Shown: in pieces, positions 53,801-64,000 of the stretch
Layout: each line of letters starts with the position of its first letter
Position numbering within the stretch: the stretch's first letter is position 1
Source of the DNA: Limnohabitans sp. INBF002
GTDB lineage: Bacteria > Pseudomonadota > Gammaproteobacteria > Burkholderiales > Burkholderiaceae_C
Direction of reading: 5' to 3'
DNA: 64,000 nucleotides
Assembly (NCBI RefSeq): GCF_027924905.1
Contig: NZ_AP027055.1
Coordinates: 2,418,001 to 2,482,000 of the forward strand
Position numbers and translations under genes: made by a program
The notes under the pieces: generated by a model
Database searches by the model: none
Told to the model about the DNA's origin: nothing
What the model saw: only the letters and a program-made list of their open reading frames with translations

Positions 53801-54715
53801 ATGCAGACCATGTCAGCCCTACACAGTCTCACCCGCAAACAGTTGCTGACCCTCGTCATCCTGACTTTGGTTTGGGGCATGAACTGGCCCATCTTAAAAA
53901 TTGGCGTGACGGGCTATCCCGCCATTACCTTTCGCAGCATTTCCATGTGGATCGGCTGGCCCTTGTTGGGCCTCGTGCTGCTGCGTATGAAAGTGCCGTT
54001 CAAAGTGCCGCGTCACGAGTGGCGGGAATTGGTGCTTTTAGCCATCAGCAATATGTTTGTTTGGCATGTGTTGATCATTTTGGCGGTGCAAGATTTGTCG
54101 AGTGGACGCGCGGCCATCTTGGGCTACACCATGCCAATTTTTTCAGCGCTGATGGGTGTTTTGTTTTTCAAATCACCGCTGCGCCCTCGTGCTTGGTTGG
54201 GCGTGGCATTGGCCGCCTTGGCCGCCATGCTCTTGTTGTGGCACGAGTTGGCACATCTGTCCGGGAAGCCCTTGGGCGTTTTGATTGCTTTGATCGCCGC
54301 AGCCTCATGGGCCTTGGGCACACAGCAAATTCGTCACACCAAGATGACGGTGCCCACCCTCACGATTGTGTTTTGGATGACCGGCATGACAGCGGTGGTG
54401 ATGAGTGTGCTGGCCGTTGTGTTTGAAATGGACCGTTGGGCCATGCCTCCTGCCCACACTTGGGGCTCCATCATTTACAACGCCATTGGCGTCTTTGTAT
54501 TTGCGCAAGCCGCGTGGCTAAGTTTGGCGCGCAGCTTGCCACCGTTGGCATCGAGTTTGAGCGTGATGTTCATCCCTGTCCTTGGCGTATTCGCAGGCGC
54601 GTGGTGGCTGGGCGAGGTGTTGCATTGGCAAGACTGGCTGGCGGTGTTGCTGGTGGTCGCGGCCATCGCCTCTGTGCTGTGGCCAGCGCGCGCATCACAA
54701 GCTGAACACATTTAG
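53801..54715 (+). CDS. EamA/DMT-family transporter
   Basis: The 304-residue protein has about ten membrane helices arranged as two EamA repeats: TLVWGMNWPILKIGV in the first and GTQQIRHTKMTVPTL beginning the second. The family exports amino acids, their derivatives and other metabolites. ATG 53801 is used; an upstream frame start at 53726 overlaps the glutaredoxin gene. The stop overlaps that of the convergent MmgE/PrpD gene by 4 bp. Confidence 0.87.
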   Translation: MQTMSALHSLTRKQLLTLVILTLVWGMNWPILKIGVTGYPAITFRSISMWIGWPLLGLVLLRMKVPFKVPRHEWRELVLLAISNMFVWHVLIILAVQDLSSGRAAILGYTMPIFSALMGVLFFKSPLRPRAWLGVALAALAAMLLLWHELAHLSGKPLGVLIALIAAASWALGTQQIRHTKMTVPTLTIVFWMTGMTAVVMSVLAVVFEMDRWAMPPAHTWGSIIYNAIGVFVFAQAAWLSLARSLPPLASSLSVMFIPVLGVFAGAWWLGEVLHWQDWLAVLLVVAAIASVLWPARASQAEHI

Positions 54716-56103
54716 GCGGTGTTGAGGTGGCGCAAGGCGCGCCATAAATCATCCGACGACGACGCTTGCGGCAATGCGGCGCAGGCGGCAAGCACCCTGG
54801 CCACGGCCTGCGGCGAATAACCTGCGGCCTGCATCACACGTTGCGCTTTCGCGATCACCATCGCATCAGACATCGGACTTTCTGGGTCGCCGGGTGCATC
54901 TGACACCTGGGTGTGCAACACCGCACCGTTGCGTAACCAGACACGAACTTGAGCGCCGTAGTGCGCTGGGTAGGCTCGACTCCAGCGCGACACTGCACTG
55001 ACATGGGTGCAGGCGCGCAAACGTGCCAAGGTGGGTTGCGCCAGGCATTCAGGTTGCGTGTCGTCCAAACCAAAATCGCCCCTCAGCAAGCCCACCGCCA
55101 CGCCGTGTTGCAAACTGAAGCGGGCTTGTTGGCGCGTACTCGGGTGTGGTTGGTTGGCAAACGCCACTGCGGTTTGGTAGGTCTGGATTTCGATGCGGGT
55201 GATCTGGCTCACATCTGGCACTTGCGCGTGCAACCGCACAGCACACGCAATGGCTGGATGAACATGGCGGCAAGCAGGCCAAGGTTTGAAGCTGACTTCG
55301 TGTATCAGCCACGGCGCATTTGGCTTTGGCGTGAGCACTGCCTTTGCGCGCCTTACATTCGGGCGACTACCGGTCGCAGCGAACCAGCCATGTTCGCCCT
55401 CCAAGATATGACGAGGTCCGACCAAACCAGCCGCAGCCAAGTCAGCCGCCATGACGCCCGATTGCGCACTGCGCCCCGCAGCCAACTGTTTAGAAAAACC
55501 GGGTTCTAAGCGACATTGCCACACCCCACTGGCTTGCATGCCAGCCTGCGCCAAAGCATGCATGGCTTGTGTGGCATCAAGCTGCAACAAGCTGGCACTG
55601 GCTGTGGCTGCACCAAACACCCCACATGTGGCCGTACTGTACCAGTGCCGGTAATGCGCGGTACCCGCCAACAAACCAACACGGATGGCCACCTCATAGC
55701 CACGCACCACCGCATCAAGCAGCGCATGCGGTGTGGCTTGTTCACGCTGTGCAACAGCCAACGCTGCTGCCATGATGGTGTCAGCCGGATGCACCACAGC
55801 AGCCCGGTGCAAGTCGTCCAACTCATCGATGTTGCCTAGCCCACCGTGGACCAATGCAGCAGCTTCGCTGTGCAACTGCAAACCACCCGCCGTCCAACAG
55901 GGTCCTGCCGCGGTCTGTGCGGCCCAACGGTTCAAAGCGGCACCAGCCGGAGAAGCGTGGCCCAGCAACACACACCCAAACCAGTCCAGCAGATGCAATG
56001 CCGCGCGGCGGCGGTCGGTGTCGGTGATGGGGCGGCCTTGCAAGGCCAACAACTGCTCGGTCCAAGAAGGCCTGTTGATGGCTCCTAGCCCAAGCCTTTG
56101 CAT
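54712..56103 (-). CDS. MmgE/PrpD-family protein
   Basis: The 463-residue protein has the MmgE/PrpD fold: DRRRAALHLLDWFGCVLLGH (in part) near the N-terminus and HPADTIMAAALAVAQR, then SFKPWPACRHVHPAI. The family includes 2-methylcitrate dehydratase (PrpD), cis-aconitate decarboxylase and many uncharacterised members, so the reaction is likely a dehydration or decarboxylation of a polycarboxylate. It is the last gene of the ten-gene operon, 3 bp after the crotonase. Confidence 0.88.
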   Translation of the reverse strand: MQRLGLGAINRPSWTEQLLALQGRPITDTDRRRAALHLLDWFGCVLLGHASPAGAALNRWAAQTAAGPCWTAGGLQLHSEAAALVHGGLGNIDELDDLHRAAVVHPADTIMAAALAVAQREQATPHALLDAVVRGYEVAIRVGLLAGTAHYRHWYSTATCGVFGAATASASLLQLDATQAMHALAQAGMQASGVWQCRLEPGFSKQLAAGRSAQSGVMAADLAAAGLVGPRHILEGEHGWFAATGSRPNVRRAKAVLTPKPNAPWLIHEVSFKPWPACRHVHPAIACAVRLHAQVPDVSQITRIEIQTYQTAVAFANQPHPSTRQQARFSLQHGVAVGLLRGDFGLDDTQPECLAQPTLARLRACTHVSAVSRWSRAYPAHYGAQVRVWLRNGAVLHTQVSDAPGDPESPMSDAMVIAKAQRVMQAAGYSPQAVARVLAACAALPQASSSDDLWRALRHLNTA

Positions 56104-56106
56104 GAC

Positions 56107-56913
56107 TCAGCGGCCTTTGAAAACCGGTGGGCGTTTGTCGTTAAAGGCTGCCACACCTTCGCGGCGGTCGTCGGTGTCCACGAGGCGGTTGTAAGCCTCC
56201 ACCTCAAACCGATACGCGGTGCGCAGCTCCATTTGCCCGCCGTAGCGGATTGATTTCTTGATTTGTCGCACTGACAAAGGCGCATTGGCGGCAATGCGTT
56301 GCGCCGTCTCTAGCGCCAATGCCAAGACCGCATCAGGCGCAGCCACTTGGTTGACCAAACCCCATTCCAAGGCCTGCTCTGCGCTGAAAGGACGGCCTGT
56401 CAGCGCCAATTCTTTGGCGCGTCGCTCGCCCAAAGCGCGCGGTAAATTTTGCGTACCGCCCATGCCAGGCATGATGCCCAAGGTGACCTCGGGCAGCGCA
56501 AAGCGTGCGTCTTGGCTCGCGTACAAAAAGTCACAGCACAACGCCATTTCCAAACCACCGCCATAGGCATGGCCATTGATGGCCCCGATGACGGGCAATG
56601 GCAAATCAATCAATGCCCAATACAAGCGCTCAAAAATCTCGTGCTGGTATTGCCACGCTTGCGGCGTCATGCCGTTGCGCTCTTTCAAATCTCCGCCACC
56701 GCAAAATATTTTGGCGCCAGCCCCCGTCAACACCACACAACGCAGATCACCAGGCTGATCGGTCAGGCGCACCCACAGGTCCAGCAAATCGATGCCCATC
56801 TGCGTGTTCAGTGCATTGCCGGCCTCTGGACGGTTCAGACACACCTGCAACACATGGTCCGACACCTGTGTGCATTCAAGCGTTCTGTAAGTCGGCAACT
56901 GGGGGTGGGCCAT
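56107..56913 (-). CDS. enoyl-CoA hydratase/isomerase family protein with intact catalytic glutamates
   Basis: The 268-residue crotonase has the oxyanion loop FCGGGDLKERN (70-80), GHAYGGGLEMALCCD with Glu122 and LPEVTLGIMPGMGGTQ with Glu142; these correspond to Glu144 and Glu164 of rat crotonase, so hydratase chemistry is plausible. It is the ninth gene of the operon, with 9 and 3 bp gaps. It differs from the second crotonase at 62345, which has lost both residues. Confidence 0.9.
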   Translation of the reverse strand: MAHPQLPTYRTLECTQVSDHVLQVCLNRPEAGNALNTQMGIDLLDLWVRLTDQPGDLRCVVLTGAGAKIFCGGGDLKERNGMTPQAWQYQHEIFERLYWALIDLPLPVIGAINGHAYGGGLEMALCCDFLYASQDARFALPEVTLGIMPGMGGTQNLPRALGERRAKELALTGRPFSAEQALEWGLVNQVAAPDAVLALALETAQRIAANAPLSVRQIKKSIRYGGQMELRTAYRFEVEAYNRLVDTDDRREGVAAFNDKRPPVFKGR

Positions 56914-56922
56914 GGTGTGCGC

Positions 56923-58077
56923 TCAATAAGATTTAGGCATGCCCAACACGTGCTCGCCCACATAAGACAAGATCAAGTTGGTCGAGATCGGTGCCACTTG
57001 GTAGAGACGTGTCTCGCGGAATTTGCGCTCAATGTCGTACTCGGCGGCAAAGCCAAATCCACCGTGCGTTTGCAAACACACATTGGCGGCTTCCCACGAC
57101 GCATCGGCCGCAAGCAATTTAGACATATTGGCCTCGGCCCCGCACGGCAGACCGGCATCGAACAAACGCGCGGCTTCATAGCGCATCAAGCTGGCCGCTT
57201 CGACGTTGATGTGCGCTTTGGCAATCGGGAATTGAATGCCCTGGTTGTGTGCAATCGCGCGGCCAAACACCACGCGTTCCTTTGCATACTGGGTGGCTCG
57301 GTCAACAAACCAATAGCCGTCACCGATACATTCAGCAGCAATCAAAATGCGCTCGGCATTCAACCCATCCAGAATGTATTTCAGGCCCAAGCCTTCTTCG
57401 CCAATGCGGTTCTCGACAGGGATACGCAAGTTATCGATGAAGATTTCATTCGTCTCATGGTTGACCATGTTGCGAATGGGTTTGACCGTGATGGTCTTGC
57501 CGACCTCTTCACGCAAGTCCACCAAGAACACCGACAAGCCTTCTGACTTTTTCTTCACTTCAGACAGCGGCGTGGTGCGGGCCAACAGCAACATGTAGTC
57601 GGAGTGCTGCAAACGCGAGGTCCACACCTTTTGACCATTGACGACATAGTGGTCACCTTGGCGCACCGCGACTGTTTTGAGCTGGGTGGTGTCCGAGCCC
57701 GTGGTTGGCTCCGTGACTGCCATCGACTGCATGCGCAACTCACCTGAAGCAATCTTGGGCAACAGAGCTTCTTTTTGCGCCTTTGAACCATGACGCACGA
57801 CACAACCCATCACGTACATCTGGCCGTGGCAGGCGCCTGAATTGCCGCCAGCACGGTTGATCTCTTCCATGATCACGCTGGCCTCGGTCAGGCTCAAGTT
57901 GGACCCGCCGTATTCCTCAGGAATCAGAGCAGACAACCAACCTGCATCGGTCAAGGCGGTGACAAACTTTTCAGGAAACGCCCTGGCCTCGTCTATCTCT
58001 TGCCAGTAACGCGAGTCAAAGGCGGACACCACTTGGCGCACACCTTCGCGCAATTCGGGAAAATCATTTCGGCTCAT
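56923..58077 (-). CDS. acyl-CoA dehydrogenase family protein with altered active-site loop
   Basis: The 384-residue protein has the ACAD layout: N-terminal helical domain, MAVTEPTTGSDTTQLKTVA (the FAD/beta domain), WTSRLQHSDYMLLLART, and a C-terminal helical domain with LQTHGGFGFAAEYDIERKFRETRLY. Where classic short/medium-chain enzymes have EGT with the catalytic Glu, this protein reads APIST (362-366), so the base must lie elsewhere or the reaction differs. It is 3 bp from the SDR and 9 bp from the crotonase. Substrate unknown. Confidence 0.87.
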   Translation of the reverse strand: MSRNDFPELREGVRQVVSAFDSRYWQEIDEARAFPEKFVTALTDAGWLSALIPEEYGGSNLSLTEASVIMEEINRAGGNSGACHGQMYVMGCVVRHGSKAQKEALLPKIASGELRMQSMAVTEPTTGSDTTQLKTVAVRQGDHYVVNGQKVWTSRLQHSDYMLLLARTTPLSEVKKKSEGLSVFLVDLREEVGKTITVKPIRNMVNHETNEIFIDNLRIPVENRIGEEGLGLKYILDGLNAERILIAAECIGDGYWFVDRATQYAKERVVFGRAIAHNQGIQFPIAKAHINVEAASLMRYEAARLFDAGLPCGAEANMSKLLAADASWEAANVCLQTHGGFGFAAEYDIERKFRETRLYQVAPISTNLILSYVGEHVLGMPKSY

Positions 58078-58080
58078 GGT

Positions 58081-58863
58081 TTATTTACTCGGTGTGGTGA
58101 ACATTTGGCCACCGTCCACGTTGATGACACTGCCGCTCAGATAGCCGCACAACGGTGAGGCACAAAAGGCTGTCAACTTGGCAATCTCATCGGGTTCGGC
58201 CAGACGACCAAACGGCAAAGCCAAGGTCAGTTCATGCCAACGCGAGGCGTCTCCCAACTTGGTGGTGGCTTGCTGCTGCAACATGCCCTGCATGCGGTCA
58301 CTCCGGGTGGGCGAAGGGTTGATGCCGAACACGCGCACACCTTGGCGCACCGTGCCACCGCCCAGACCTTGGGTGAAAGCGATGAGCGCCGCATTGGCCG
58401 CTGAGCCGCAGATGTATTCATAGCGCGGTGCCGCACCGGCCATGCCGATGATGTTGGCAATCACACCCTTGCCGCGTTTTTCCATGCTGGGCAAATATGC
58501 GCGCGTCAGGTTGATGTAGCTGTAGAGCTTGAGCTCCCATGCCTGACGCCAGCGCTCTTCGGTGATGTCGTGGATGTTGCCGCCTGGAATCGCGCCCGCA
58601 TTGTTCACCAACACATCAATATCACCCACCTGTTGGCATAACTTTTCCGCGGAACCAGGCAAGCCCAAATCAGCCTCAAACACCTCGGGAGTGATGTGGT
58701 GTGCAGCTTCAATGGCTTGCACCGCATGGGCCAAGTTGGCGCGATCACGCGACACCAAAACAGGCTTGGCGCCTTCGGCCGCGAACGCTTGCGCAATCGC
58801 CAAACCAATGCCTTTGGATCCACCCGTGATAAGGACGCGCTGTCCTGTCAGTTCTAAATTCAT
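58081..58863 (-). CDS. SDR-fold protein lacking the Ser-Tyr-Lys triad
   Basis: The 260-residue SDR has an intact dinucleotide motif TGGSKGIG (13-20) and NNAG (87-90). At the active site the canonical Ser falls at Ile139/Gly140, and YxxxK is replaced: residues 150-160 read YICGSAANAAL, putting Gly153 at Tyr and Asn157 at Lys. Tyr150 is three residues early. Normal ketoreductase chemistry is thus unlikely; it may bind NAD(P) for another reaction. It is 3 bp upstream of the ACAD. Confidence 0.85.
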   Translation of the reverse strand: MNLELTGQRVLITGGSKGIGLAIAQAFAAEGAKPVLVSRDRANLAHAVQAIEAAHHITPEVFEADLGLPGSAEKLCQQVGDIDVLVNNAGAIPGGNIHDITEERWRQAWELKLYSYINLTRAYLPSMEKRGKGVIANIIGMAGAAPRYEYICGSAANAALIAFTQGLGGGTVRQGVRVFGINPSPTRSDRMQGMLQQQATTKLGDASRWHELTLALPFGRLAEPDEIAKLTAFCASPLCGYLSGSVINVDGGQMFTTPSK

Positions 58864-58889
58864 CGTCGGCTCTCTTTAAGAAGTTGGGA

Positions 58890-59768
58890 TCAGTTGGATG
58901 GGGCTGGCACTTGGGCCGAATACCACTGGGCCATTTTTTCGCCGGTGACAAAACACACCTCAGGCGTTGCCATCAAAAGGTCGAGCATTCTTTCGAAGCT
59001 CTCGAAACGGTGAGGCACACCGATCAAATGCGGATGCAAGCCAAGCGACAGCACCCGTGGTTGGATCGCACATTCACGCTTGAACAAACGCAAGGTGTTG
59101 GACAAGCGTTGGAACATTTCGTCTGACGCATGTTTTTCGATCGCGTAGATGATGGAGTCGTTGACTTCGAGGTTGTAAGGCAAGGACATGAGTGGGCCGT
59201 TCTTGGTGTGCATCCAATGCGGCACATCGTCCACCACCCAATCGAACACGTACTCAACGCCCAACTTCTTCAAAATATCGGGGGTGTCGTGCGACTCACG
59301 CAAACCCGGGCTTAGCCAACCTTTGGGGCGTTTGCCCGTGAACGACTCGATCATGTCCAAGCTGGTCGAGATCAATGCCTCTTCGCCCTCCGCATGGTTG
59401 AGCGCCTTTTGATGCACGCCATGACCGATGAATTCCCAGCCGGCTTGGTGCATGGCTTCTGCCGCACGTGGATAGGCTTGAATCACACCCGCGTTAAAGC
59501 TGGTGGACGCAGGCAAGCCACGGCTGTGAATGGCATTGATGATGCGCGGCAAGCCTGCGCGCATACCGTAGTCGACCCAACTGAAGTTGGGCACGTCAGG
59601 CACAGTTTCTTTGCCATGTGGCGGCGTGATGATGGTGCGCGGCATGCTGGCATCAAACTGCCAGTGCTCCACGTTGACCACCAAGTGAACCAAGATGGCA
59701 CCTTCTTTGGGCGCCGCCAGCTGTGGGCCTTCGTTAGAAAACCGATAAGGGATGCGAGGATTAGCCAT
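58890..59768 (-). CDS. NodB/PuuE-like polysaccharide deacetylase-fold protein
   Basis: The 292-residue protein has the NodB-type barrel of the PuuE (cofactor-free allantoinase) branch: HLVVNVEHWQFD (29-39), WEFIGHGVHQKAL (111-122) with His116 and His119, and GWLSPGLRES. The Asp-Asp of metal-dependent NodB deacetylases is replaced by Val-Glu (33-34). A role in hydrolysing an amide or ureide of the imported compound is inferred. It overlaps the ABC ATPase gene by 8 bp, indicating coupling with the transporter. Confidence 0.8.
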   Translation of the reverse strand: MANPRIPYRFSNEGPQLAAPKEGAILVHLVVNVEHWQFDASMPRTIITPPHGKETVPDVPNFSWVDYGMRAGLPRIINAIHSRGLPASTSFNAGVIQAYPRAAEAMHQAGWEFIGHGVHQKALNHAEGEEALISTSLDMIESFTGKRPKGWLSPGLRESHDTPDILKKLGVEYVFDWVVDDVPHWMHTKNGPLMSLPYNLEVNDSIIYAIEKHASDEMFQRLSNTLRLFKRECAIQPRVLSLGLHPHLIGVPHRFESFERMLDLLMATPEVCFVTGEKMAQWYSAQVPAPSN

Positions 59769-60519
59769 GGGTGTGTCGGATGAGGTTGAGAATGTCGAGC
59801 TTCATGGCGCTGAAAGCCTCACTCGCCGTGTCAGCCACCGTGCGGGGACGCGCCAAGGGCACATTGATTTTGGATTGGATGCGACCAGGTCGTGCAGACA
59901 TGACATAGATGGTGCTGGCCAAGAAAATGGCTTCGTCAATGTCATGTGTGACAAAGATGATGGTGGGCTTGAGCTTTTGCCACACCGACAACAACAGCTC
60001 TTGCATGGTGAGTCGGGTCTGCGCATCCAACGCGCCAAAGGGTTCGTCCATCAGCAACACACGTGAACCCAAGGTCAAAATGCGCGCAATGCCCACGCGT
60101 TGACGCATGCCCCCTGACAGCTGCACGGGCAAGTGATTTTTGAAATCATGCAAACCCACGATGCTGAGCATTTCATTGGCACGCTCCTCATACTCAGCCT
60201 TCGGAAGGCCTTGCATTTGAGGACCAAAAATAACGTTCTCCCATACTGTCAACCAAGGAAACAAAGCGGCCTCTTGAAACACCACGCCACGCTCAGGGCC
60301 TGGCGCTTGCACCGCTTGCTGGTTGACCTGCAAGATGCCCGAACTGGGCAACTCGAAACCTGCAATCAGGTTGAGCAACGTGGACTTGCCGCAACCCGAG
60401 GGGCCGAGCAACGCCACAAACTCACCCGGAGGCACGTCGAGGTCAATGTGATCAAGTGCCTTGACAGGCGGTTGACCAGGATAAGTTTTGCAAAGATCTT
60501 GAACAGTGATATTGGACAT
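59761..60519 (-). CDS. NitT/TauT-type ABC transporter ATPase
   Basis: The 252-residue ATPase has Walker A GPSGCGKST, signature LSGGMRQRVGIARIL and Walker B VLLMDEPFGALD, matching SsuB/TauB/NrtD-like proteins. ATG 60519 is used; the frame stays open upstream inside the permease gene. With the adjacent permease and binding protein it forms a complete importer for the operon. Stop overlaps the NodB-like gene start by 8 bp. Confidence 0.92.
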   Translation of the reverse strand: MSNITVQDLCKTYPGQPPVKALDHIDLDVPPGEFVALLGPSGCGKSTLLNLIAGFELPSSGILQVNQQAVQAPGPERGVVFQEAALFPWLTVWENVIFGPQMQGLPKAEYEERANEMLSIVGLHDFKNHLPVQLSGGMRQRVGIARILTLGSRVLLMDEPFGALDAQTRLTMQELLLSVWQKLKPTIIFVTHDIDEAIFLASTIYVMSARPGRIQSKINVPLARPRTVADTASEAFSAMKLDILNLIRHTHG

Positions 60520-60526
60520 AAGAATT

Positions 60527-61327
60527 TCAGTGACTTTGCAAAATACGCCAGACCAGAACCTTGCGTTCGATGAACACAATGATGCGATCGCTGATATAAC
60601 CCATGGCACCAATCGACACCATGTCGGCCAACACGATGTCCATGCGGCCCACGTAGTAGGCATCCCACAGCACATAGCCCAGGCCAGACTTGACGGCCAC
60701 CATTTCTGACACGATCACCGCTGTCCACGAAATGCCAAGGCCAATACGCAAACCGGTGAAGATCGACGGCATCGCCGCTGGCAACACCACGCGATACAAC
60801 AGCTGCGCGCGACTCGCGCCCATCATCAAAGCAGCACGTACCAAATTGCGATCGACATCACGTGCGCCTTGTGTGGCGTTGACCACGATGGCATAAAAGC
60901 CACCTAGGAAAATGAGAAAGATCGAACCCACATCTCGGATACCAAACACGGCGATGGAGAAGGGCAACCATGCTGTGATGGGAATGGGGCGCAAACTTTG
61001 AATCAAGGGGTCGAGCATTTGCGAAATGAACTTGCTCCAACCAATCAACAGGCCGAGTGGCACGCCGACCAGTGCAGCCAACACAAAGCCTTGTGCCACA
61101 CGCATGGAGGAGTACTCCACGTTGGACAACCACGTGCCGAGGTAGGGGTTGAGGCCCAGACCGGCTTGTCCGAAGATCCAGCCGTGCCACCCCTCAACCA
61201 CCTTCAAAGGCGTAGGCAGTATGCCGGCCATGCCGGGCATATTGCCCATCACCTGCCACAGCACGACAACGGCGGTGGGTACCACCAGTCCGAGCAGCAG
61301 TTGCTTGAAATGTGCCGTTGTCTTCAT
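60527..61327 (-). CDS. NitT/TauT-type ABC transporter permease
   Basis: The 266-residue polytopic protein has the BPD-transport motif region ALMMGASRAQLLYRVVLPAAMPSIFTGLRIGLG (in part), as SsuC/TauC permeases do. ATG 61327 is preceded by AAGGACAC. It starts 15 bp after the binding-protein gene and 7 bp before the ATPase gene. Confidence 0.92.
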   Translation of the reverse strand: MKTTAHFKQLLLGLVVPTAVVVLWQVMGNMPGMAGILPTPLKVVEGWHGWIFGQAGLGLNPYLGTWLSNVEYSSMRVAQGFVLAALVGVPLGLLIGWSKFISQMLDPLIQSLRPIPITAWLPFSIAVFGIRDVGSIFLIFLGGFYAIVVNATQGARDVDRNLVRAALMMGASRAQLLYRVVLPAAMPSIFTGLRIGLGISWTAVIVSEMVAVKSGLGYVLWDAYYVGRMDIVLADMVSIGAMGYISDRIIVFIERKVLVWRILQSH

Positions 61328-61342
61328 GGTGTGTCCTTGCAC

Positions 61343-62320
61343 TTACTTCTTGATTTCTTTGGCCATGCTGTCGTCATACAGCTCAGCCGCTTCTTTGGTC
61401 ACGTCTTTTTGCACGATGCCTTGCTTGAACGCAGCCTCAGCCAAACGACCCACCTGCTCTTTGTTGAGCACGCCGCCGAGTTTGATGATCTTGGCTGATT
61501 CTTTGGTCACACTCAGTGGCAGACCTGTGTACTTGGCATAGGCATCTGCGAATTGGTCGTTGTTTTTCGCCAATTGCTCCTCCACTTTGAGGTAGGCCCA
61601 CAAGAAGCGACGCACCAATTCTTTCTTAGTCGCCATGGCTTCGCCCGAAGCGGCCAACATGCCCAACTCTGCGCCCACGGAACGTGACTGGCTGTAATCA
61701 AGCTTGGTCGCGAAATACGCATCGCCTTCGGCAACAGCTTGAGATTCAAAGGGCTCCCACAACACCATCGCATCAATGTCGCCACGCTTCATGGCTTGCA
61801 CAAATGCTGTCCCGCCGCCTTGCACGTTAACGGGCGAGAACGAGGTGTAAGGAATGTTCTTTTCAATCAAGGTCATGGCCCATTGGAACCACACGGCTGA
61901 TCCGGGTGCGATGGCAATTTTCTTGCCATTGATATCACCCCATTCGTCGATCTTCACGCCTTTGCGCACCACCAAAAATTTGTTGGAGCTACCCACACCG
62001 GTCAAACCGATCAAGTTCTTGCTGCCTTGCGCCGCCACGATGGCCAAATCGCCAGGTCCAACGGCCGACACATCGACCGAGCCCGACAGCAACGCGGTAC
62101 GTGCATCGGCGTAGCGCACAAACTCTGCACGCTTGACTTCAATGTTGAGCTTCTTGAGCTCCTCTTCCAGCATCAGCATAGGCGCCAAGTGGCCCACTTT
62201 GACAAAGCCCACACTGAGGACTTCTTTTTGTTTCATGGGTGCGGGGGAGGGCCCTACAGCCAAAGCAACGGTGGCTGTCAATGACAGCGCAATCGTGAGC
62301 AGGGTTCTTAAAGATTTCAT
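61343..62320 (-). CDS. NitT/TauT-type ABC transporter binding protein
   Basis: The 325-residue protein has a signal peptide (about 1-22, VALA) and the NMT1/SsuA pattern VGFVKVGHLAPMLMLEEELKK (in part), GDLAIVAAQGSKNLIGL and WGDINGKKIAIAPGSAVW. Relatives bind sulfonates, nitrate, taurine, riboflavin precursors or aromatic acids; the ligand here is unknown. ATG 62320 has GGAGAAG just upstream; an in-frame ATG at 62332 lies in that Shine-Dalgarno. Confidence 0.9.
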   Translation of the reverse strand: MKSLRTLLTIALSLTATVALAVGPSPAPMKQKEVLSVGFVKVGHLAPMLMLEEELKKLNIEVKRAEFVRYADARTALLSGSVDVSAVGPGDLAIVAAQGSKNLIGLTGVGSSNKFLVVRKGVKIDEWGDINGKKIAIAPGSAVWFQWAMTLIEKNIPYTSFSPVNVQGGGTAFVQAMKRGDIDAMVLWEPFESQAVAEGDAYFATKLDYSQSRSVGAELGMLAASGEAMATKKELVRRFLWAYLKVEEQLAKNNDQFADAYAKYTGLPLSVTKESAKIIKLGGVLNKEQVGRLAEAAFKQGIVQKDVTKEAAELYDDSMAKEIKK

Positions 62321-62344
62321 CTTCTTCTCCATGGGGTGGTTGAT

Positions 62345-63118
62345 TCAATGGCCGGTGAACTGAGGTAGCCGCTTCTGTGCAAAAGCCAGTCGGCCCTCGG
62401 CATAGTCGCTGCTTTTGAAACACGCATCTACGGCCTGATCGATGCGTGTGATTTGAGAGGTGTCGCCATCTGCAATGCACAGCATGGCTTGCTTGGCGGC
62501 TTGAACCGTGAGGGGAGCGTTCTGTGCAATTTGCAAAGCCACATCGGCGCAATGCGCGAACACATCGTCATGCACTGAGTTGACGATGCCAATGTGTGCA
62601 GCCTCTGCTGCGCTGTAAATCTTGGCGGTATAAAAAGCTTCTGCCGCCGCTGTGGGCCCGAGGTTTTGCACAATGCTTTTCATGCCCTGGTAGCCATAGC
62701 CCAAGCCCAAGCGTGCGGCAGGCATGCGGAACTTCGATGTAGGGCCCGCATAACGCAAATCGCAACTCAATGCCAAGCCCAAACCGCCGCCATAACAAAT
62801 ACCACTGATGGCAGCAATGACAGGGACGCGACAACGGGTGATCGCCTCTTGCGCCTCCGCCACGCTTTGGTTGTAGTGAGCGACCGATGCGTCTGAATTT
62901 CGCTGGGTTTCAAATTCGCTGATATTGGCGCCGGACACAAACGCACGTTCACCGGCACCACGCAAAATCACAGCACGCACATCGGGCTGACGTTCAATCG
63001 CGTCAAACGCTTGGCCGAGCGCAATCCACATCGACAAGCTCATGGCGTTGTAACGCTCGGCGTCGTCAATCGTGACCACGGTCACGTGCGCGTCGTGTGT
63101 GACGTGTATAGCCCCCAT
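62345..63118 (-). CDS. crotonase-fold protein lacking both catalytic glutamates
   Basis: The 257-residue protein has the crotonase fold with oxyanion segment AFVSGANISEFE (59-70). GICYGGGLGLALSCD has Gly114 where hydratases have Glu, and RMPAARLGLGYGYQG has Ala134 for the second Glu. It is therefore not a normal enoyl-CoA hydratase; other chemistry of the superfamily (isomerisation, hydrolysis, C-C cleavage) is possible. It is 2 bp from the CoA-transferase-like gene and 24 bp from the binding protein. Confidence 0.88.
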   Translation of the reverse strand: MGAIHVTHDAHVTVVTIDDAERYNAMSLSMWIALGQAFDAIERQPDVRAVILRGAGERAFVSGANISEFETQRNSDASVAHYNQSVAEAQEAITRCRVPVIAAISGICYGGGLGLALSCDLRYAGPTSKFRMPAARLGLGYGYQGMKSIVQNLGPTAAAEAFYTAKIYSAAEAAHIGIVNSVHDDVFAHCADVALQIAQNAPLTVQAAKQAMLCIADGDTSQITRIDQAVDACFKSSDYAEGRLAFAQKRLPQFTGH

Positions 63119-63120
63119 GC

Positions 63121-64000
63121 TTAGACCACCTCTTGTGTGTGAAATTGCTGAATCTCTTCGTCCGAGTACCCGGCTTCGCGCAGCACTTCATCCGTGTGCT
63201 CGCCCCATCCAGGTGCAGGCGCCACGACTTGGGACGGTGTGCGCTCTAAAACCACTGGCTGAGTGATGTACGCAATTTCCTTGCCAAAATTTGTCATCAA
63301 GGATTGTGTGACTTTCAAATGCTTCACTTGCTCATCTTCAAACACTTGAGGCACGGTGTAAACCGGACCAGCGGGAACGCCAATCTGGTTGAGCAAATCG
63401 ACCCAATGCTTGACGGTGTTCTTTTTAAACTCAACTGCAATTTGTGCATTCAAGCGTTCACGGTGTTGCACACGCAAAGGCTCGGTGCGGAATTCGGGAT
63501 CAGCATACCAATCAGGTTTGCCCAAGGCATCACAAAAGCGTTTCCAGTTGCCCTCACCAGACGCGCCTAAATTGAAGCAGCCATCGTTGGCATCGAACAA
63601 GCCCATCGGCGAACTGGTGGGATGGTTGTTGCCCACTTGCACGGGGACATCGTTGTCGTTGAGGTAGCGCGCCATCTGAAAATCCATCATGGCAATTTGG
63701 GAGTGCAACAAAGAGCTGTGCACCCACTGGCCTTTGCCAGACACCTCGCGCTCCAACAGGGCCACCAAAATACCGAGGGCACAGTACAAGCCTGCACTCA
63801 GATCAGCCACGGCCAAACCAGCGCGAATGGGGCCGTGCTCGGGCTCACCTGTCACGCTCATCAAGCCGCCCATGCCTTGGATGATTTGATCGAATCCGGG
63901 ACGCCAAGCGTATGGACCATCCTGACCAAAGCCAGAAATACTCGCCAAGATGATGCGCGGGTTGACCTTGGCCAAAGACTCGTAATCAAGACCCAAACGG
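63121..64000 (-). CDS. CaiB/BaiF family III CoA-transferase-like protein, N-terminus cut by window edge
   Basis: The last 293 residues of the protein are visible; the start lies beyond base 64000. Family landmarks are SISGFGQDGPYAWRPGFDQIIQGMGG (in part) and VTGEPEHGP. At the place of the catalytic Asp (Asp169 of formyl-CoA transferase, usually VD-x-SL) the sequence reads WVHSSLLHSQ, with His for Asp. A class of CaiB-like proteins shares this; whether it transfers CoA is unknown. It is the most upstream operon gene visible, 2 bp before the crotonase. Confidence 0.88.
   Translation of the reverse strand, partial: RLGLDYESLAKVNPRIILASISGFGQDGPYAWRPGFDQIIQGMGGLMSVTGEPEHGPIRAGLAVADLSAGLYCALGILVALLEREVSGKGQWVHSSLLHSQIAMMDFQMARYLNDNDVPVQVGNNHPTSSPMGLFDANDGCFNLGASGEGNWKRFCDALGKPDWYADPEFRTEPLRVQHRERLNAQIAVEFKKNTVKHWVDLLNQIGVPAGPVYTVPQVFEDEQVKHLKVTQSLMTNFGKEIAYITQPVVLERTPSQVVAPAPGWGEHTDEVLREAGYSDEEIQQFHTQEVV

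Follow-up and report, generated by a model that had tools for sequence, protein, structure and literature searches.

A 64,000-nucleotide stretch of Limnohabitans sp. INBF002 DNA (the window; positions 2418001-2482000 of a genome that forms one contig of 2.59 Mb) holds part of an operon that encodes a NitT/TauT-type importer, a NodB/PuuE-like hydrolase (hereafter NodB), an amidase and a series of coenzyme A (CoA) enzymes. The operon is conserved and, as far as we have seen, uncharacterised; in our search of open papers we recognised none that described it or its route. Our preferred explanation, to which we give a probability of roughly 0.48, is that it serves to take up and break down a small cyclic imide, or a cyclic amide of similar kind, with the carbon skeleton of a branched C4-C5+ dicarboxylic acid, and we favour an alkyl-succinimide or -maleimide as the candidate substrate. 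We read the operon this way because its synteny is conserved in two bacterial classes and on Azospirillum and Variovorax plasmids, because NodB is PuuE-like and Aspergillus offers a precedent for an imidase followed by an amidase (PMC9304392), and because the Lys/Ser/Ser residues of the amidase are intact. The branched dicarboxylate is suggested by an acyl-CoA dehydrogenase (ACAD) 74% identical to that of a sister locus, and by the hydratase and lyase genes linked to the operon in relatives.

Extent and conservation of the operon

An earlier reading of the window (the original prediction) described a ten-gene operon. All ten open frames are present on the minus strand at 54712-64000 and belong to the families it stated (Table 1), but the window ends within the CaiB frame, and the full unit is 11 genes with a divergent GntR/FCD regulator. 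In the genome, CaiB is 398 aa long (L007:13121-14317), and an amidase-signature protein lies 2 bp upstream of it, beyond the window, which rules out an operon ending at CaiB. The regulator comes next, followed by a PyrF-like gene (a label read by eye). The predicted spacing of 2-26 bp or overlaps was right about the compactness and includes one 8-bp overlap, although the smallest gap is 1 bp (the nine gaps are 2, 12, 15, 1, -8, 26, 3, 9 and 3 bp). Genome G001, the most similar of those examined, carries the same twelve genes at 94-100% identity.

The original prediction also proposed looking for the gene set elsewhere. A scan with NodB gave 79 loci from the best 80 of 82 confirmed relatives, of which one (L085) was dropped, its NodB being only a fragment above threshold. 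Genes in the remaining 78 loci were called at set identity thresholds, and 36/78 loci had more than 8 kb of left flank and more than 4.5 kb of right flank. Among these 36 long-flank loci, the permease and the ATPase were each found in 30, the periplasmic binding protein (SBP), the short-chain dehydrogenase/reductase (SDR) and CaiB in 29 each, ECH2 in 26, the amidase in 25, GntR in 18 and the ACAD in 16. A core of amidase, CaiB, ECH2, importer, NodB and SDR, often with the ACAD, thus recurs in Burkholderiales and Alphaproteobacteria. ECH1 (5/36) and a close PrpD (2/36) were rejected as core genes and are mostly additions in close relatives. Since gene counts differ across the 36 loci, the ten genes do not make up a single conserved set.

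The closest named matches of NodB are in records titled Limnohabitans, Comamonadaceae and uncultured Burkholderiales, while the titles of the locus records include Polaromonas, Pigmentiphaga, Bosea, Azorhizobium and Alsobacter. Conserved synteny is also found on named plasmids of Azospirillum and Variovorax. On plasmid p3 of Azospirillum brasilense Sp7, the core genes D9621_RS27740 to RS27775 follow one another, encoding an amidase, a CoA transferase, an enoyl-CoA hydratase, the three importer components (SBP, permease and ATPase), NodB and an SDR, and in Variovorax paradoxus VAI-C the amidase, CoA transferase, hydratase, NodB and an MmgE/PrpD protein occur together. Within the window's genus, 25/84 genomes have a homologue of NodB at 74% identity or more, a count that includes three rows with one internal stop and one genome (G024) with NodB split in two pieces.

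Several loci have other arrangements. NodB stands alone, by the thresholds used, in L052, L076, L078 and L080. In L017, L034, L069 and L086, the importer and NodB occur without CoA enzymes, beside TRAP-transporter-like and D-2-hydroxyacid-dehydrogenase-like genes (named by eye). In a rearranged variant (L018, L020, L022, L031 and L082), the operon includes a cupin-domain gene, and the SBP gene follows that of the ATPase in inverted orientation.

Table 1. Operon genes inside the window, with family assignments and residues of interest.
Gene product	Positions	Strand	Remarks
CaiB/family III CoA-transferase, cut by the window edge	63121..64000	-	Asp172 present
ECH2 crotonase	62345..63118	-	above cut-off of NCBIfam PRK06127; hydratase Glu replaced by G114 and A134
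NitT/TauT-type periplasmic binding protein (SBP)	61343..62332	-	
ABC permease	60527..61327	-	
ABC ATPase	59761..60525	-	
NodB/PuuE-like hydrolase, proposed cyclic imide hydrolase	58890..59768	-	invariant E34, H116, Q120, D181, H245
SDR, proposed atypical (possibly ene-) reductase	58081..58863	-	above PRK06125 cut-off; Ser/Tyr/Lys replaced by G140/G153/N157
Acyl-CoA dehydrogenase (ACAD)	56923..58077	-	74% identity to sister-locus ACAD; IVD-type base E242
ECH1 crotonase	56107..56913	-	both catalytic Glu kept; mostly in close relatives
MmgE/PrpD protein, proposed substrate epimerase	54712..56103	-	His105/Tyr151 kept; N91, Y155 changed; close copies only in close relatives

The proposed imide route and its ring-opening enzymes

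From the gene content, order and conservation, and from the family and residue assignments, all of which were observed directly, we infer the following route. The NitT/TauT importer would take in the ring compound, and the SDR would set the redox state of the ring, possibly by reducing a C=C bond. NodB would then open the imide to a half-amide, from which the amidase would free ammonia, leaving an alkylsuccinate. Where present, PrpD may epimerise this acid before CaiB makes its CoA ester and the ACAD converts the ester to an alkylfumaryl (mesaconyl-type) CoA. A hydratase and a citramalyl-CoA-type lyase would finally yield a 2-oxoacid such as pyruvate and an acyl-CoA; some Polaromonas relatives encode enzymes of these two kinds next to the ACAD, and the window genome encodes them in its sister locus.

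NodB is PuuE-like in its sequence and predicted fold. Its five residues in Table 1 are kept in 78/78 (residue counts here and below are of orthologues over set identity thresholds, window row included). The folds nearest to its predicted model (predicted local distance difference test, pLDDT, 83.6) are PuuE-type, with a Foldseek TM-score of 0.79 to 3cl6, and PuuE-type allantoinases are its nearest solved relatives in both fold and sequence. PuuE allantoinase itself was rejected, as NodB scores 113.4 bits against model TIGR03212, far below the cut-off of 424.6; its gene neighbourhood also differs. A known defence protein was likewise rejected, there being no PADLOC family for it. Paralogues of the NodB family (33-46% identity) occur in the same genus at L091:3757-13483 and L094:2338-12890, beside molybdenum-hydroxylase-like, Liv-transporter, amidase and isochorismatase-like genes (several of these neighbours named by eye), as if the family had expanded in the genus for N-heterocycle or amide catabolism.

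The amidase retains Lys60/Ser135/Ser159, the triad of the amidase signature, in 27/27, and we take these residues to be catalytic. By analogy, the PuuE-like fold and the linked amidase make NodB a candidate cyclic imide hydrolase. In the nicotinate breakdown of Aspergillus nidulans, as described in PMC9304392, the polysaccharide-deacetylase-type imidase HxnM acts before the amidase HxnN, and in this system (with HxnW) an NAD-dependent oxidoreductase acts just ahead of ring opening. The likeness is drawn from the description of these enzymes, and the fungal route differs in ending in hydroxyglutarate without CoA activation. The same source compares HxnM with the HP0310 branch, and PMC3084791 sets PuuE against HP0310, the latter binding a metal ion.

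Alternatively, the ring could be a lactam or ureide from an N-heterocycle of pyridine, pyrimidine or purine type, which NodB would open and whose chain the CoA enzymes would process. The paralogue neighbourhoods above and the allantoinase relatives of NodB point in this direction, as do two genes linked to the operon in relatives, a flavin adenine dinucleotide (FAD) monooxygenase in 21/78 loci and an EutA/arylmalonate-decarboxylase-like gene in 24/78. However, the best match to this monooxygenase in the window genome is only 28% identical, a search there without a positive control found no EutA-like match, and both the hydratase/lyase linkage and the kinship of the ACAD indicate a branched dicarboxylate. 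We consider such a ring unlikely, if by no means far-fetched.

The replacements at the SDR's Ser/Tyr/Lys positions (Table 1) occur in 58/58 orthologues, in which Y150 is invariant too, so the classical SDR residues are absent. The protein scores above the NCBIfam PRK06125 cut-off (358.6 vs 261 bits), and its predicted model has a pLDDT of 92.1. Its best phmmer match, by a narrow lead over the next (110.5 vs 107.6 bits), is AerF, whose aligned motif also lacks the Tyr and Lys and has the same Asn (by eye); Foldseek, in contrast, puts other SDRs first, with AerF ranking 10th, 12th and 14th. AerF is an alkenal double-bond reductase according to PMC13256417 and a reference title in PMC10143770, and among mint SDRs a Tyr-to-Glu change divides an ene-reductase from ketoreductases (PMC4988501). 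Going by these comparisons, the SDR is possibly an atypical reductase, perhaps an ene-reductase.

An ene-reductase-like SDR, together with NodB, the amidase and a methylsuccinate-type CoA module, would also suit a narrower proposal, namely that the operon degrades the alkyl-maleimides left at the end of chlorophyll and heme breakdown. Here the SDR would turn a maleimide such as methylmaleimide or methylethylmaleimide into its succinimide by reduction, NodB would open the ring and the amidase release ammonia, and the alkylsuccinate would end as pyruvate and acetyl-CoA or a longer acyl-CoA. Reports cited in PMC7318184 place maleimides along with hematinic acid in senescent leaves and in lake sediments, while the samples of that study itself had hematinic acid and no detectable maleimides. 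This proposal seems to us a long shot.

The CoA enzymes and the methylsuccinate-type module

According to the original prediction, five members of the operon lack residues that define the chemistry of their families. As it did not name them, we checked all operon proteins. In the ACAD, the position of the medium-chain acyl-CoA dehydrogenase (MCAD)-type Glu is Pro363 in 40/40 orthologues, and a lost base was considered; it was refuted by the Glu at the isovaleryl-CoA dehydrogenase (IVD)-type position, E242, which is present in 40/40 and aligns with Glu254 of the isovaleryl-CoA dehydrogenase 1ivh. We take a Glu at either position to be the catalytic base, which by this alignment has only moved.

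The ACAD also shows kinship with a methylsuccinate-type module. The sister locus of the same genome (L009, near 830 kb) has a hydratase, ACAD, CaiB, PrpD, CitE-like lyase and LivHMGF importer, and shares with the operon 74% identity in the ACAD, 33% in CaiB and 30% in PrpD. The genome's only match to the FAS1-type hydratase and its best lyase match are both in this locus, which has all five of CoA-transferase, ACAD, MmgE/PrpD, hydratase and lyase. Cupriavidus necator and Pseudomonas aeruginosa have a five-gene itaconate/methylsuccinate cluster with this same gene content (PMC12290011). In the operon, too, a CaiB-type transferase stands with an acyl-CoA dehydrogenase and an MmgE/PrpD protein, but the operon adds NodB, the amidase, the NitT/TauT importer, the SDR and a Glu-less crotonase; it has no FAS1/MaoC-type hydratase and no lyase of its own, and two residues of its PrpD are changed. 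A Comamonadaceae plasmid encodes the same five enzymes, with an ACAD 87% identical to the sister copy. At L114:8-3113, a five-gene methylsuccinate-type cluster on a Comamonadaceae plasmid is adjoined by genes for a nucleoside deaminase, an amidohydrolase and a member of the polysaccharide-deacetylase family.

In an ACAD tree of 49 rows (46 different, arbitrary root), five sister-type ACADs form one clade (96/96), two of them (L116 and L117) from loci where not all five genes were found. Another clade (86/99, below the tool's star) unites 34 operon ACADs, the window's included, and six Alphaproteobacterial operon ACADs lie outside both. The five sister-type ACADs carry both ACAD motifs of the operon ACADs. 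The comparison of the operon ACAD with methylsuccinyl-C4-CoA dehydrogenase goes by its 74% identity to the ACAD of a cluster matched by gene content, and the two ACADs fall in separate clades.

In relatives, candidate genes for the last steps of the proposed route lie near the operon itself. Across the 78 loci, a FAS1-type hydratase homologue is linked in 14, a RipB-like hydratase in 5, a RipC-like (citramalyl-CoA-lyase-like) protein in 4 and a Bug-type binding protein (label by eye) in 23. In Polaromonas locus L039, five of the linked genes come after the ACAD, all read in one direction and with little space between them. The models nearest to the lyase and one hydratase from relatives are those of itaconate degradation. 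Among 80 genomes of the family, a search for RipC gave none above the cut-off, a result of little weight as control genomes also fell below it.

A linear C5 substrate, i.e. a glutarimide-type imide or amide degraded via glutaryl-CoA, fits some of the model scores. Among NCBIfam models, full-length CaiB scores highest with succinate-glutarate CoA-transferase (321.4 bits, cut-off 750), the second-best model for the ACAD is a glutaryl-CoA dehydrogenase (217.5 bits, cut-off 470), and ECH1 and an SDR could act downstream. Against this stand the kinship of the ACAD with that of a methylsuccinate-type cluster, the itaconate-type models of the lyase and hydratase, and an SDR without the usual dehydrogenase residues, and we find a linear substrate decidedly unlikely.

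The remaining enzymes bear on the original prediction's idea that several members jointly lost their family chemistry, making the operon a pathway of unusual reactions. ECH2 indeed lacks the classical hydratase residues, with Gly and Ala at both crotonase Glu positions in 33/33; it lies above the PRK06127 cut-off (314.0 vs 291 bits), and of three solved relatives, compared by eye, 4olq and 4wcz also lack the Glu pair while 4k2n retains the first Glu. ECH1 has Glu122/142 in 11/11, as classical enoyl-CoA hydratases do. CaiB has Asp172, presumably the catalytic residue of family III CoA-transferases, in 47/47. In the window PrpD, with positions mapped by spacing rather than by alignment to a characterised protein, the residues are N91, E94, H105, Y151, Y155, K205 and a conserved Lys. 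Methylsuccinate isomerase has His88, Glu91, His102, Tyr148, His152, Lys202 and Lys266 at these places (P. aeruginosa numbering; PMC12290011), so the proposed His/Tyr acid/base pair persists, and the two His proposed to bind carboxylate are replaced, in the same way in 6/6 close orthologues. The sister PrpD2 has all seven residues at a constant offset of 2.

The invariant absence of classical residues from the SDR and ECH2 suggests that their reactions are probably not textbook ones, and PrpD adds its two changes. Beyond these, the case for five lost active sites is weak: there is no loss in the ACAD, CaiB, ECH1 or the amidase, NodB is PuuE-like, the acid/base pair of PrpD persists, and the SDR and ECH2 belong to named subfamilies. 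A pathway built on jointly lost chemistry therefore strikes us as improbable. The original prediction had itself named two outcomes that would count against it, of which one was found (alignment places the ACAD residue elsewhere) and the other was not, the neighbourhood being conserved. Its outline of a dedicated pathway of import, hydrolysis, CoA activation and dehydrogenation is supported by this synteny and by the kinship of the ACAD with the methylsuccinate-type module.

Several observations weigh against an imide with a branched dicarboxylate skeleton. NodB scores 82-85 bits with PuuE-type allantoinases and 40 bits with the HP0310 branch, the one to which HxnM is compared. By the thresholds used, the ACAD is absent from 20/36 long-flank loci and the amidase from 11/36. 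Locus L023 has the importer, NodB, SDR and amidase without CoA enzymes, and L047, L048, L050 and L053 (three of them on short contigs) have CaiB, NodB and ACAD without the importer or a detected amidase. The lyases, at 174.9 and 150.6 bits, are well short of the 375-bit RipC cut-off, the operon ACADs fall outside the sister-type clade, and the sister cluster was matched to that of PMC12290011 by gene content only.

Candidate operator and wider meaning

From sequence comparison, the GntR/FCD regulator probably binds TATAAATATA. The core of this candidate operator, ATAAATAT, is upstream of the GntR gene in 23/23 regions first chosen, compared with at most 3 for this word, and at most 6 for any word, in 200 dinucleotide shuffles. 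After nine other regions were added, the count was 28/32 (those without it being L047, L048, L050 and L053), which is not a probability since the regions are related. The core occurs 51 times in the 1.23 Mb of the 79 loci. Exact TATAAATATA has five copies in the genome, two of them at the operon, and the reversed control word has two. A second tandem pair of exact TATAAATATA lies far from the operon (G000:C1:244389-244406) and may mark another target of the regulator.

Motif checks by eye can overstate catalytic loss, as a base may sit on another helix, and residues may differ across a whole orthologous group without the gene being dead. If our imide reading is true, the operon would connect compounds with ring nitrogen to the central metabolism of bacteria in fresh water and soil. 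It would also point to one source in the environment for methylsuccinate-type acids, which PMC12290011 describes as of unclear origin until recently. Were the pigment proposal true, bacteria in lakes and soils would have a route by which the nitrogen and carbon of pigments are finally disposed of.

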